Made by a program: the position numbers and the translations under genes
Notes under the pieces: generated by a model
Seen by the model: the letters and a program-made list of their open reading frames with translations, nothing else
The model's database searches: none
Told to the model about the DNA's origin: nothing
From: Sedimentisphaerales bacterium
Lineage (GTDB): Bacteria; Planctomycetota; Phycisphaerae; Sedimentisphaerales; SM23-30
Reading direction: 5' to 3'
Length of the DNA stretch: 51,475 bases
Assembly (NCBI GenBank): GCA_016934515.1
Contig: JAFGSR010000227.1
Location: 1-51,475, forward strand
In this document: piece after piece, positions 10,352 through 39,928 of the stretch
How the letters are laid out: every line of letters begins with the position of its first letter
Numbering within the stretch: the first letter of the stretch is position 1

Positions 10352-10382
10352 AAAAGGCGGTTTTGTCAAGGCCGCCTTTTTT
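10352..10382 (+). terminator. Rho-independent terminator after the secretin gene
   Basis: AAAAGGCGG-ttttgtcaagg-CCGCCTTTTTT: 9-bp stem and U tract. Confidence 0.8.
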
Positions 10383-26331: not shown

Positions 26332-28590
26332 TTATTGTGTCTTAGAGGGCTGTTTAGACTGGTAGTTCTGCAGATGCATTTTGATTTTTTCGCTAAATTG
26401 ATGGTTTCCTGCAGTTTCGGCCATTTGAAGGGCTTTTTCCCAATGGGCGATTGCCTGATCCTGCTGGTCCAATCTTGAATAAGCCAGCCCCAGGTTGTAA
26501 TAGATTCCATAATGATTTGGTGCCCACTTCAAAGCTTCTTTCCAATAATTGACAGCCTGATCGATTTTCCCCGCCGCCGCCAACTGCTGGGCCATCAGAT
26601 CGCGCAGAGTTACGTGATTCTGGTCCTGAGCAGGTAACAACTGCAGTGCCTGGTTCCAATAGGCAAACGCCTGGTCTAGTTTTTTCTGCTGGGCGAGGAC
26701 CTTGCCCAGATTAATGCAAGTTTGCACATCGTTGGGACGAATTATCAAGGCTTCTTTGTAGTGCAGCACGGCCTCGTCCCGTCGATCCTGCATCACCAGC
26801 GCCACCGCCAAATTAGCATGAGCGTCGGCGTCTCCGGGATGGAGTCGAAGAACTTCGCGGTAATGCTTTTCCGCCGGTGCGTATTTGCCTAGTTGGTTCA
26901 AGACCAGCGCCAAATTACCATGAGTCATGTAATCGTCAGGTTTGGCCTGGACTGCTTTTTCGAAATAAGTTACTGCCTCTGTCAGTCGGTTAACACGCAT
27001 CAAGGCCAGTCCCATCCGATAGTTAGTCTTGAAATTGTCCGGTTCCGATTGCAGGAATTTACCAAAGTCAGCAATTGCTTTATTAAACTGCTCTCCTTCA
27101 GAAGCTGCGTAACCCCTCAGATAGTAACTTTCATTCCTTTCGGGGTATTGCTTGAGCATTTCCGTGCAGATTTTAATGGCCTGATCAAAATGTTTGGTAT
27201 CCATGGCAATTTGGTATTTATGGGATAACCGGTGAAAATTTATATATTCTTTGGGATCGGGTTTTTGGGAGTCCAAATCAAAGCCTTCAACTGTGTGGCC
27301 GGAAACATAACCCAACGATTCCAGTCGGGCACGACTCTGAGCATCCAAAGTAATTGTGTTATCCGTTTGCTCCATTGGTGCTAATTCATCCAGTTTCTGC
27401 AGGAGAATACTTTGCATAAATCGGGCGCGTTTGTTCTCCTGGTCAGCCAGGTTAATGGTTTCATCAGCATCTTTTTCCAGATTGTAGATTTCCTCTTTCG
27501 AGGCGTAAATGTATTTCCAGGGTTCACCCACCAGGGCAAGCAAGGGGTTGCAGCCGTATTTGGTCGGATACAGCGATTCGCAAATTAAATAACGCGACTC
27601 TGAGGGCGATTTATCTGTTTCTTGATATTGGCGTAAATCTTCACCCGGCAGTTGCTGCGAAACCGGGATACCAGCGTAGCCGAGAACTGTCGGTACAATG
27701 TCAATTAATCCCACCAGCCGGTTGATATTTTGCCCCTTTTTGGAGTTGGGTGGTTTAACAATCAATGGAACTCTGGTGGTGCTTTGGTACACAAAATAGC
27801 TATGGAAATTTTCGCCGTGTTCCCCCAACCCTTCACCATGGTCGCCCACAATTATCACCAAGGCTGAATCATAGATTCCCAGTTGCTTCAATTTATCTAT
27901 AACGCCGCCGATGCAGTGGTCCGTGTATGCAATTTCGCCGGCGTAAAGATGGTCTTTGAATTTCGTCGCATAGGGTTCCGGAGGTCGATAGTCGGCATGG
28001 GGGTCGTAATAGTGTAAGAAGAAAAAAAACTCTTCCTGTTGATTGGCATCTAACCACTGATTGGCTAGCCGGGTAACTTCCTCGCCGCGTCGTTCGCTGA
28101 TCTCTAGATAAGTATGCTGTTGTTCAAATTGGTCGTTGTAACTTTCAAAACCCTGATCCAGTCCGAACTTATGGTCCAGCACAAAACTGCTGACAATGGC
28201 AGCGGTCTTGTACCCCTTTTTCCCCAAAATTTCCGCCAGGGTAATATTGGAACTGCCCAGTTGGTAATCCATATTGTCATGCACGCCGTGCTGATTGGGG
28301 ATGGTGCCGGTCATCATTGAACTGTGTGCCGGCAGCGTCAAGGGGACCGGAGTAATCGCGTTGTTGAAAAGTATTGCCTTTTGGGCTAACGCGTCAATGT
28401 GCGGGGTGGTTTCCTGAGAATAGCCGTAGCAGCTCAAGTGGTCGGCACGACAGGTGTCAATGCTGATCAGAATTATCTGTCGAGGTTTTTCGCTGGACGG
28501 GTACTTTTGGCAACTATTGATCATGAAGCTTGTTGCAAGCAGCAAAAACACATTAAAAAACCAGATTGTATTCATTTTTCGGGATGACAT
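26332..28590 (-). CDS. Sulfatase-like hydrolase/transferase lipoprotein with C-terminal TPR repeats
   Basis: IILISIDTCRADHLSCYGY, PVPLTLPAHSSMMTGTIPNQHGV, VIIVGDHGEGLGEHGE; then multiple TPRs (YMTHGNLALVLNQLGKYAPAEKHYREVLRLHPGD...); lipobox SFMINSC. Confidence 0.9.
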   Translation of the reverse strand: MSSRKMNTIWFFNVFLLLATSFMINSCQKYPSSEKPRQIILISIDTCRADHLSCYGYSQETTPHIDALAQKAILFNNAITPVPLTLPAHSSMMTGTIPNQHGVHDNMDYQLGSSNITLAEILGKKGYKTAAIVSSFVLDHKFGLDQGFESYNDQFEQQHTYLEISERRGEEVTRLANQWLDANQQEEFFFFLHYYDPHADYRPPEPYATKFKDHLYAGEIAYTDHCIGGVIDKLKQLGIYDSALVIIVGDHGEGLGEHGENFHSYFVYQSTTRVPLIVKPPNSKKGQNINRLVGLIDIVPTVLGYAGIPVSQQLPGEDLRQYQETDKSPSESRYLICESLYPTKYGCNPLLALVGEPWKYIYASKEEIYNLEKDADETINLADQENKRARFMQSILLQKLDELAPMEQTDNTITLDAQSRARLESLGYVSGHTVEGFDLDSQKPDPKEYINFHRLSHKYQIAMDTKHFDQAIKICTEMLKQYPERNESYYLRGYAASEGEQFNKAIADFGKFLQSEPDNFKTNYRMGLALMRVNRLTEAVTYFEKAVQAKPDDYMTHGNLALVLNQLGKYAPAEKHYREVLRLHPGDADAHANLAVALVMQDRRDEAVLHYKEALIIRPNDVQTCINLGKVLAQQKKLDQAFAYWNQALQLLPAQDQNHVTLRDLMAQQLAAAGKIDQAVNYWKEALKWAPNHYGIYYNLGLAYSRLDQQDQAIAHWEKALQMAETAGNHQFSEKIKMHLQNYQSKQPSKTQ

Positions 28591-29001
28591 TATTATTTTG
28601 ATAATTGAATTTCCGTAATTTGCAAATCAACAAAAAACCGGTGACATACTTATAGTAGCGAAGCAACAATGATCCGACAATACAAATTGGCCTATTATGC
28701 CCAAGCGGATCTACAGTTCAGGTTATGAACGGGTATAAATTGGCTGATTTCATGTTGTTTTTTTTCAAGTGTAGCTGTTGATTATCAATAATCAAAATAT
28801 TCCGTAAAGTGTTATGTGGCAAATGTTTATGTGGCTGCAATGGCGATATTTTGGGATAAGGTGTTTCCTGAACGCATCAATCTACTTACTGCAATGATAG
28901 AATGCAAAACGGTAATAGCACAATTCAAAGGATAACTAAATCAAGGCCTGCAAAAAGGTTGTGAATACCGGTGTAATATACTCCCATTAGTTTAGGGGCT
29001 A

Positions 29002-29016
29002 TGGCACGTTTTTTGC
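29002..29016 (+). promoter_or_regulatory. Sigma54 (RpoN) -24/-12 promoter
   Basis: TGGCACG-TTTT-TTGC matches the consensus TGGCAC-N5-TTGC, in an otherwise non-coding 0.9 kb region. Confidence 0.6.
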
Positions 29017-29027
29017 GTTTATTCGTA

Positions 29028-29255
29028 CCATATCTATAAATCTAAAGATTTGATTGCGGCTAATCTGTTATTCGTTTTTCAGGTAACCTGAATTAGAGTG
29101 AATCGTAATTTTTTGTTTTTAAGCTGTTTTTAGGGTTTTTGTCTCTATATATCTTGTCTCTGAGCCAGGAGTGGAAGGAAGAGAAGGAGGGGTTTAGGCT
29201 CGACAAGATTTTTACAAGCAGCGGGCCACCGGAGGGGCGGTCCGCTGCTTATATT
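29028..29255 (+). ncRNA. Candidate structured small RNA, sigma54-driven, with purine/GGA-rich hairpin loop and terminator hairpin
   Basis: Downstream of the -24/-12 element; hairpins AAATCT-AA-AGATTT (29038-29051), TTCAGGTAACCTGAA (29078-29092), CTTGTC-tct-GAGCC...GGCTC-GACAAG (29153-29207) with loop aggagtggaaggaagagaaggaggggttta; terminator-like AGCAGCGGGCC...GGTCCGCTGCT (29217-29249). No convincing ORF. Confidence 0.45.
29217..29255 (+). terminator. GC-rich hairpin followed by an AT-rich tail
   Basis: AGCAGCGGGCC-accggaggggc-GGTCCGCTGCT, 11-bp stem with one GU pair, then TATATTTTATAAA. Confidence 0.65.
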
Positions 29256-29474
29256 TTATAAACCATTGAATACAAAGTGTTTGGGGAAATATCCGTTTTT
29301 ATCTTGGAGCTTTACTTAGTTCATTTGCTGGGATACTACATATATTCTGGAAAAGACGTGAAAATCCCCCCGCATCTAAATCTAATCCGGTTCTAATCCG
29401 GGATTTTCCGGTTCCTATAATTACTTGTTGTAAATAACCGCTAAAGATTTCACTTAGAAGCTATATAGTGAAAT

Positions 29475-29969
29475 TTATTGCTTACCTCTGCATTTCGGAC
29501 ACGTCATGGAAACTTTATCCAGGAGCGTTTCTATAATAAAAATCTCGTTACATTTTCTGCAATTCAACGCCCTGTAACTCGCATACTTTCCGCACGCCTC
29601 GCATTTTGCCGGAAGATCCTCGGTCATATCCCCCCAGGCAGCAATAATCCTTCGTTCAATTTCTGCATCAGTCACAGTCGCCGGATCAACCGGCATCTCA
29701 GATTCTGCCGGAGCTTGCGCAAAATCATTCATAATATCATTAACCAGGTCCGGATCAGCAATCTTTAACTCATCAAACTGCTTCCGGGCGAATATGGCAA
29801 AATCATCTAAAGTGAAACTTTTTACATCGCCACATGCCTGACACTTCAAATATACATCTAAACCTACCATGTCGGCACTTGAAGGAGTACTAAACATCAT
29901 GAAACCAGCACTAACTATTACCAGGACACAACTAGCGACCAATAATCCCTTTGCTAATTCACTGCTCAT
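29475..29969 (-). CDS. Membrane-anchored protein with two zinc-ribbon (4x CxxC) regions
   Basis: 164 aa; N-terminal TM (GLLVASCVLVIVSAGFMMF); CQAC, CEAC, CRKC, CPKC motifs. Confidence 0.6.
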   Translation of the reverse strand: MSSELAKGLLVASCVLVIVSAGFMMFSTPSSADMVGLDVYLKCQACGDVKSFTLDDFAIFARKQFDELKIADPDLVNDIMNDFAQAPAESEMPVDPATVTDAEIERRIIAAWGDMTEDLPAKCEACGKYASYRALNCRKCNEIFIIETLLDKVSMTCPKCRGKQ

Positions 29970-30073
29970 ATTACTTGTTACATCCTTAACTAAAATTGTA
30001 AGTAAAATAACCTAAGATTTCTATAGGACAACCTAATAACATACACTTGATCAGCTTTCCGACACCTAATCGC

Positions 30074-31000
30074 CTATTTATATTGAGTCTTAAAGTACAC
30101 GAACCATCTTTCATCAATGTCTTTGCCATAATCGTCAAGGCCTTCGGTAACTAAGTTTGAAACGTGGCTGTCCATCCAGAGCGCATTACAGAAACGGTTT
30201 GAATGGCGAAAAACCTGCCAGAAACCGTAATCAATTGGACCATATCTGGGCCTTGATACTGTTCGCCACTGATTCAGGTTCCATTCAACACCATCCGTAG
30301 CCGACAAACTACCGACGAAGTGTCTGGGCGGGGCAGGTATATCACCTGGTATGCTTTGAAACGATCCCTCACAGGTTTGTTCCATACTGTCAAAGGCATA
30401 TACCAACTCCTCCGGCAGTCTGTCGGCGGAGGACACTTTAAGGCCGTTATTCAATCTAACGTTGCCGTACGATGAATAATAAAAATATTGTTGGAATGCC
30501 TCCGTACCTAACCCTATACTCCCCGGTATCCCCCAATCATCACACAACCCCCCATCGGGGCAATGGTAAAGATCTTTCCGGTCCGAATAATCCCTGAAGG
30601 CCACACCCCAATAAGCCGTTCCCGCTGGGCCGTAAGGATTATAACCACTAACTGTAAGTTCAGGATAATACGTATTAATATGTTTGGGCTGATACTCATA
30701 ATAAGGTTTTGAGTCACCAAAGTAATCAATCGTCCATTGGTTGTCCCACACTCCATAACTGTTGAAACCTCTAACCATTTGGGTGTCGCCTGGACGAGCC
30801 ATAGGAAGGCGGTTTTCATTCTCCACCAGGTACATAGCTATCGAGGAACCCAATCCTTTGAGGTTAGCCATACAGGTCACTCTTTTGGCCTGTTCCCGAG
30901 CAGCCCGCAAGCCTGGCATCAATATCGACATCAGGATTGCGATAATAGCGATTACCACCAATAACTCAATTAAAGTAAACCCTTTGATAGGCCTTTTCAT
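30074..31000 (-). CDS. Prepilin-type N-terminal cleavage/methylation domain protein (pseudopilin-like)
   Basis: [52 protein letters not shown]-terminal [16 protein letters not shown]. Confidence 0.92.
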
Positions 31001-31470: not shown

Positions 31471-31504
31471 CCAGAGACTGTGAAATTGTTTTCACAGTCT
31501 CCGG
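31471..31504 (-). terminator. Strong hairpin downstream of the 1141-aa ORF
   Basis: CCAGAGACTGTGAAA-ttg..-TTTCACAGTCTCCGG inverted repeat just beyond the stop of the minus-strand CDS. Confidence 0.6.
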
Positions 31505-38775: not shown

Positions 38776-39928
38776 ACCTTTCTCCTTTTTGAAGAAAACC
38801 AAATTTCTCTACCTGTTCAATCTGCGGCGCCCTGACCACCAAGGCACCTCAATCTAAACTTTACTACTTTTTATATCCGCAGCCACAACAAATAGTTGCG
38901 GCAATTGATACTGCCCTCACCGGTTACCCGCTTTTTCTGTCCTCCGAAGCCGAATACATTAATACCCTGCTATCCGTAATGACAGGTGAAGTTGTAACTG
39001 CTTCTAACTCAAACATATAAATCTCTTGAGCAAAACCTCCATCTTTATCAACCGGCTGATTCCGGCAATGTGAATAAAAACGCTATCTCCTTTTCATCTA
39101 GACTATCAGAAAACGGCCTTCTGGTTTCACCATATTGCGCATATAAATAACCATTTTCCGCATACATAATCCTATCGCCTTTGCCTACCTAATTATTATG
39201 GGTCCCTTGTTGTTTTCTTGGCCTAAATCTTCACGGCATCTCAGCCGGCTAGGGCAAATCGAAGGTGTAAATCAGGTTTTCCGGAATCCATTCCACTATG
39301 CTTAATCGACAAAAGAACCCACCGAAAAAAGTACAAAATAGCAACGTGGACTCTCGATGGGGCAATACCTAAGAAGTGTTCTGCGTGTTTTTCCAGAATA
39401 TACATTGCCATTTTTAAGCAAAACAAATGATCCCATTAATGTATGCATGGATTGTTAACGGAATTATGTCTGCAGATGATGGTATGCGGGTTTTTTGCTT
39501 ATTTCTTACAATTTAAACCGTTTAAACTCAAAGTCAAAGATTCTTAAGCACGTCCGGAATAGTCTAATATATCGATCCCGCCGGCAGTTTATAATTCCCA
39601 AACAGAACATTGATACATGTTTAAAAATTTACTGTGATTCGGTCAAGACCTGTTTGCGTCTTACGCAAAATGGTTAAATCCGTGCGCAACATGGTGATTT
39701 ACGGGAGGATTTTCTGACTATACTCAAAATACGATAAGGATTGTAAAAAAAGGACTTAATTATCGTTTTCACTTGACATTCTTTTTTGACGATGATAGAA
39801 TAGCTGAAAAGAAGCTGAATGGGGTTGTGCAGTTTCGACTTGCTGTTTTTGAGCCTTATATTAAAGTTACGTAATGGGGGCTTGTGTGTGGTTACGAACA
39901 GATTTTTCAGAAGCAAAGTGTAGTTGAT

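Follow-up and report, generated by a model that had tools for sequence, protein, structure and literature searches.

We identified a putative sigma54-driven, intrinsically terminated non-coding transcript of ~220-225 nt in an intergenic gap of a Sedimentisphaerales genome, and we tentatively favour, at a little under an even chance, the reading that it is a free-standing, lineage-specific sRNA gene, acting most likely through Hfq-independent antisense pairing or Shine-Dalgarno (SD) mimicry. Such a transcript is well supported, because the promoter, the rpoN gene, the genome-wide pattern of sigma54 sites and the terminator all point to it, and to this extent our results bear out the earlier note on the window (the whole 51,475-nt stretch of DNA that was analysed), which had proposed a candidate sigma54-dependent non-coding RNA in this gap. 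With a sigma54 promoter, a strong terminator and no protein gene in between, the locus probably makes a small RNA without coding function, unless it is what remains of a lost gene, and our preference for the former is not a strong one. The features are as follows, with coordinates given as positions in the window:

28812..28835, + strand: direct repeat TTATGTGGC, two copies at 15-bp spacing, ~170-190 bp upstream of the promoter
29002..29016, + strand: sigma54 -24/-12 promoter TGGCACGTTTTTTGC, sole exact match in the window
29028..29255, + strand: putative non-coding transcript, ~220-225 nt
29039..29100, + strand: small 5' hairpins AAATCT/AGATTT and TTCAGG-TAA-CCTGAA, predicted folds
29151..29209, + strand: stem ATCTTGTC/GACAAGAT plus GAGCC/GGCTC, with a 30-nt purine loop
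29216..29250, + strand: intrinsic terminator hairpin, 12 bp plus 2 bp, loop GGAGG, tail ATATTTTATA
29360..29408, - strand: inverted repeat, probable 3' end of the minus-strand zinc-ribbon gene, outside the RNA

The probable sigma54 promoter and its locus

The gap spans ~880 bases between two minus-strand ORFs, at 26332-28590 (sulfatase-TPR) and 29475-29969 (zinc-ribbon). As had been observed from the letters, a consensus -24/-12 element stands alone in this long non-coding stretch: TGGCACG-TTTT-TTGC at 29002-29016 has both the GG and the GC with a 4-nt spacer, and is the single exact match in 51 kb, where ~0.03 would be expected by chance (by arithmetic from 11 fixed bases on both strands). 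RpoN is encoded in the window's own genome, in which the pattern TGGCACN5TTGC occurs 17 times against four times for a reversed-pattern control, and when totalled across 13 genomes of the family TGGCACG-N4-TTGC occurs 48 times against 17. The strictest form of the pattern gives six sites against one control match in the own genome, and five of the six are intergenic; several exact sites of this genome fall within coding frames. The intergenic sites precede, among others, the genes for a type III glutamine synthetase (GSIII), Hsp20, an M20 peptidase, ClpB and a sigma70-family factor, so that most of these predicted sites lie before genes known as sigma54 targets (GSIII, Hsp20, ClpB); chaperones are enriched in the sigma54 regulons of Planctomycetota (PMC12316311). 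Since rpoN is present, exact sites exceed the control and such targets lie behind the intergenic sites, the element at 29002-29016 is probably a genuine sigma54 promoter.

The direct repeat TTATGTGGC upstream of it is a possible site for an activator (an enhancer-binding protein, EBP), an idea that we consider speculative; no significant sharing of this region with the other sigma54 promoters of the genome was found. We rejected an upstream site in common with the sigma54 promoter of glnN (GSIII), as TGTAATATACT and TCATGTTGTTTT are shared by the two but shuffled sequences do equally well (P 0.06-0.2), and we put down to chance that 30 nt of the upstream gap (28826-28855) are matched in a gene for a membrane-type protein (C98, with a likely counterpart in G001). 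Elsewhere in the genome, a near-perfect -24/-12 element, TGGCACAGATGTTGC, lies immediately 5' of a sigma70-family sigma factor gene (L036, G000:C226:27980), which suggests a sigma54-to-sigma70 cascade. On the other side of the putative RNA, the nearby tail of the zinc-ribbon gene has matching tails in the paralogue regions of this gene at C37 and C83. The zinc-ribbon protein (window 29475-31000) is one of a family of paralogues, of which the genome has three other members (L043, L044 and L045), and in at least one of these (L044) the paralogue again adjoins a pseudopilin-like gene.

Structure and coding capacity of the putative transcript

We placed the transcript start ~12 nt past the GC of the -12 element, near 29028, and the terminator begins ~188 nt past this expected start. 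The hairpin segment at 29212-29255 is much stabler than its shuffles (z -5.95, and -5.76 by a second estimate), the T-run is confined to the + strand, and the tail is similar to that of the terminators at 10353-10379 and 31471-31504, which belong to neighbouring genes; the hairpin itself (29216-29250) has one of the longest stems of terminator type that the window contains. An 11-bp GC hairpin with an AT-rich tail had been described ~190 nt downstream, and its position is borne out and the hairpin is strong (z ~-6), but its length is corrected to 12 bp with two additional inner pairs.

Three further inverted repeats had been reported ahead of the terminator, and all of them are present, including the stem of the purine loop, in which the arms are ordered ATCTTGTC-[TCT]-GAGCC...GGCTC-GACAAGAT (29151-29209). 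This bulged 13-bp stem is equalled in 0.7% of shuffles (P ~0.007), and its 30-nt purine loop contains four GGA motifs and the word AAGGAGG. The fold energy before the terminator, however, is ordinary. On the + strand it is not significant for the purine-loop segment (29150-29212, P 0.28) or for the transcript from its start to the end of that segment (29028-29212, P 0.77), while the minus strand of 29150-29212 is more significant (z ~-4), presumably owing to fewer G-U options in the loop. The predicted 5' hairpins give P 0.008 over 29068-29100 and P 0.18 over the entire 29028-29149, and the fold of the full-length RNA is only mildly low (z -1.8).

There is no ATG across 29028-29262, no ORF follows the AAGGAGG word, no Pfam match was found in the + frames or in the one minus frame scanned, and, apart from antisense ones, there is no + strand ORF of at least 150 aa before position 39884. 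A leader or small-protein gene could still be sought in a 40-aa frame that starts with TTG (29139-29261). However, this frame reads through the terminator, has no relative in the searched genomes and no Pfam match, and lies in an interval without ATG; we therefore consider a coding role for the transcript very improbable.

Conservation and alternative origins of the element

The earlier note looked to relatives for conservation of the promoter and stems, and none was found in those searched. Using blastn we detected no homologue of the element in 98 relatives, and a covariance model detected none when run on 161 genomes from the order; this model was built from one sequence entered twice, so its E-values are rough and it detects only fairly close relatives. 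The hairpin pattern had no match in 85,462 species genomes, and phages, plasmids and viral contigs yielded no homologue either. An Rfam scan had likewise been proposed at the outset; strict and relaxed scans returned no family, the best score in 28900-29320 being 20.5 bits where the gathering threshold is 45, and a synteny search with the flanking proteins found no partner locus. The sampling behind these results is thin, with one congener that is 62% complete, so that absence there is uninformative.

The most serious competitor of an sRNA gene is a stump, that is, a unit once composed of a sigma54 promoter, a leader (perhaps with AAGGAGG as its SD sequence), a gene and a terminator, from which the gene has been deleted and which may still be transcribed without function. 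We consider this unlikely, though it is the likeliest of the alternatives. A precedent for it came from the family-wide survey of exact sigma54 sites, in which a gene-less unit surfaced in the congener G001 at another locus (L097). We had tried L097 as a homologue of the sRNA, and it turned out to be an hsp20 unit that has lost its gene: the lone TGGCACGGTTTTTGC and the terminator in G001 are 81-85% identical to those flanking hsp20 in the window's own genome (for L097/L110, G001:C126:1699-1954, against L131, G000:C226:36400-38400, the promoter is 81-84% and the terminator 85% identical), no hsp20 frame is left, and between promoter and terminator there is a dispersed ~78-nt repeat. L097 lies at the same locus as the hsp20 unit of the own genome, next to a gene assigned by eye to the queG type. 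Within the genus, therefore, a lone sigma54 promoter with a terminator can be a gene-loss stump, and this gene-less unit is a caution for the prediction of sRNAs from such a pair of signals. The window element resembles the hsp20 unit and its remnant (L037/L131 and L097) in having an exact -24/-12 element, a strong terminator and a distance of similar order between them, and resembles L097 in having no reading frame; its SD-like word lies ~155 nt past the start, within the local range of sigma54 leaders (75-160 nt), no start codon follows this word, and the element is not conserved. On the other hand, no homology to the hsp20 unit extends beyond the promoter, and the dispersed repeat of the genus, present in L097, was sought inside the window element and is absent from the window. 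Whereas a homologous intact promoter-terminator partner was found for L097, none was found for the window element, and the fetched loci include no sigma54 gene with the same leader or terminator. Moreover, no coding remnant is seen in the frames scanned, and the 13-bp stem straddles the point at which the gene would have been deleted; a random deletion would not create such a stem (P ~0.007).

Pure coincidence, i.e., a fortuitous -24/-12 match in an AT-rich gap next to an unrelated hairpin, appears less probable than a stump. It would agree with the four matches that the reversed control still yields in the own genome, which imply that some of the 17 exact sites are fortuitous, with the exact sites inside coding frames, and with the element being unconserved; against it stand the excess of the strictest form over its control, the mostly intergenic placement of those sites, and the right orientation and distance of the element relative to a strong terminator on the same strand. 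We favour a lineage-specific sigma54 sRNA over a relic, if not strongly, because neither an intact partner nor a coding remnant was found for the window element and its stem spans the would-be deletion point. In general, the sRNA reading is strengthened by the promoter together with rpoN, the terminator on the same strand, the lack of a coding remnant, the rare purine-loop stem and the failure to detect Hfq, and is weakened by the lack of a homologue, of an Rfam family and of a conserved activator site, by the ordinary fold before the terminator, and by the fact that a lone sigma54 promoter and terminator can be a gene-loss stump, as in the congener.

Two families of repeats were met in the course of these comparisons. 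The ~78-nt dispersed repeat is palindromic (TGACAAAATG...CATTTTGTCA; L097:1471-1549 and many G000 and G001 loci), has about a dozen copies per genome in the two genomes of the genus and is absent from the other relatives searched; it is REP- or MITE-like. The other is a ~210-bp repeat with three copies (L145, L146 and L147; G002:C92, C88 and C117) that are 82-86% identical and carry an exact sigma54 promoter with ~60 bases downstream, whereas two partial copies lack the promoter; it is a candidate for a spreading sigma54 promoter cassette or a multi-copy RNA family.

Proposed mode of action and known systems

The exposed GGA loops had been taken as the hallmark of an RNA that titrates CsrA/RsmA, in which case they would bind CsrA dimers and free mRNA targets when sigma54 is active. 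The suggested check of the genome for csrA did find the gene, in two copies, all five GGA motifs can be drawn in or beside loops, and in the full-length MFE structure two GGA fall in hairpin loops, where shuffles have 0.25 (P 0.03), which is weakly suggestive. GGA in the loop of a hairpin is what CsrA binds (PMC7652899). However, GGA is not enriched (5 against 4.9 in dinucleotide shuffles, P 0.59), and 31% of all 235-nt windows hold at least five. In CsrA ligands the GGA lies in small loops, which are often ANGGA hexaloops, and the CsrB of E. coli contains 22 GGA (PMC7652899); the present RNA has only two ANGGA, both in one large loop, and lacks the repeated short ANGGAN hexaloops of CsrB or of RsmE ligands (PMC7652899). 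The GGA that had been pointed out in the terminator loop is indeed there, but its context is CCGGAGG instead of ANGGA, and the stem that carries it is very stable. In addition, one csrA adjoins fliW, between flagellin-like genes. FliW and the BarA-UvrY sRNA route are almost mutually exclusive (anti-correlated at -0.97 in sequenced genomes), and Planctomycetes are listed as possible FliW users (PMC4682653). Since GGA is unenriched, ANGGA is scarce and csrA is paired with fliW, titration of CsrA by this RNA is unlikely, and we rate it below coincidence. The second csrA (L002, G000:C216:4403) clusters with response regulators and hsp20, apart from the flagellar csrA-fliW pair. Slimmer again is the chance that, in a bacterium with FliW and apparently without Hfq, an RNA under sigma54 control sequesters CsrA or acts as an SD mimic. 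Whether FliW and sRNAs are used together is unsettled according to a review of CsrA (PMC7652899), and a CsrA-sequestering RNA here would, if true, place RNA and protein antagonists of CsrA within one organism.

Returning to the favoured lineage-specific sRNA, we propose that the RpoN holoenzyme and an enhancer-binding protein would start transcription near 29028 and that the intrinsic terminator would stop it near 29255, so that the product would be a non-coding RNA ~220-225 nt long. Its exposed G/A-rich loop, AGGAGUGGAAGGAAGAGAAGGAGGGGUUUA, would most likely pair with a pyrimidine-rich RNA in an Hfq-independent antisense mode; alternatively, the AAGGAGG in the loop may mimic an SD sequence. 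The loop is the obvious contact for a pyrimidine-rich RNA because it is unpaired and lies in a genome (88% complete) where Hfq was not detected. By this means, a sigma54-type signal would adjust some target, and from the other sigma54 targets of the genome we guess this signal to be nitrogen, stress or motility. The promoter motif, RpoN, the terminator, the lack of a reading frame and the loop are all read directly from the DNA; transcription, the loop as the active part and any target are what we infer from them.

Genes for sigma54-dependent sRNAs are a known kind, represented by Qrr, CrcZ and GlmY/Z. The Qrr RNAs are conserved, depend on Hfq and often occur in several copies, and CrcZ depends on CbrB and sigma54 and sequesters Hfq via A-rich sites. 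To our knowledge, sigma54-driven small RNAs are mainly from Gammaproteobacteria, and we know of almost no sRNAs characterised in the host lineage; if transcribed, the candidate would thus be a small RNA from a lineage with almost no characterised ones, in a genome without detected Hfq. A 2025 survey of sigma54 regulons that covers Planctomycetota nowhere mentions small RNAs (PMC12316311). The candidate is like CsrB/CsrC and RsmY/RsmZ in having some GGA in predicted loops and csrA in the genome, but differs from them in that GGA is unenriched, ANGGA is scarce and fliW is present. It differs from CrcZ of Pseudomonas in its purine motifs containing GGA, the undetected Hfq and the lack of an Rfam match, and is like CrcZ in being a putative sigma54-driven RNA with repeated unpaired motifs and a potential sponge (PMC4063720). 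Finally, unlike the Qrr sRNAs of Vibrio, it is single-copy, has no homologue among the genomes searched and comes from a genome in which no Hfq was found; it resembles these sigma54/LuxO-dependent RNAs (PMC10162802, PMC2680268) in its lone intergenic -24/-12 promoter and its intrinsic terminator.
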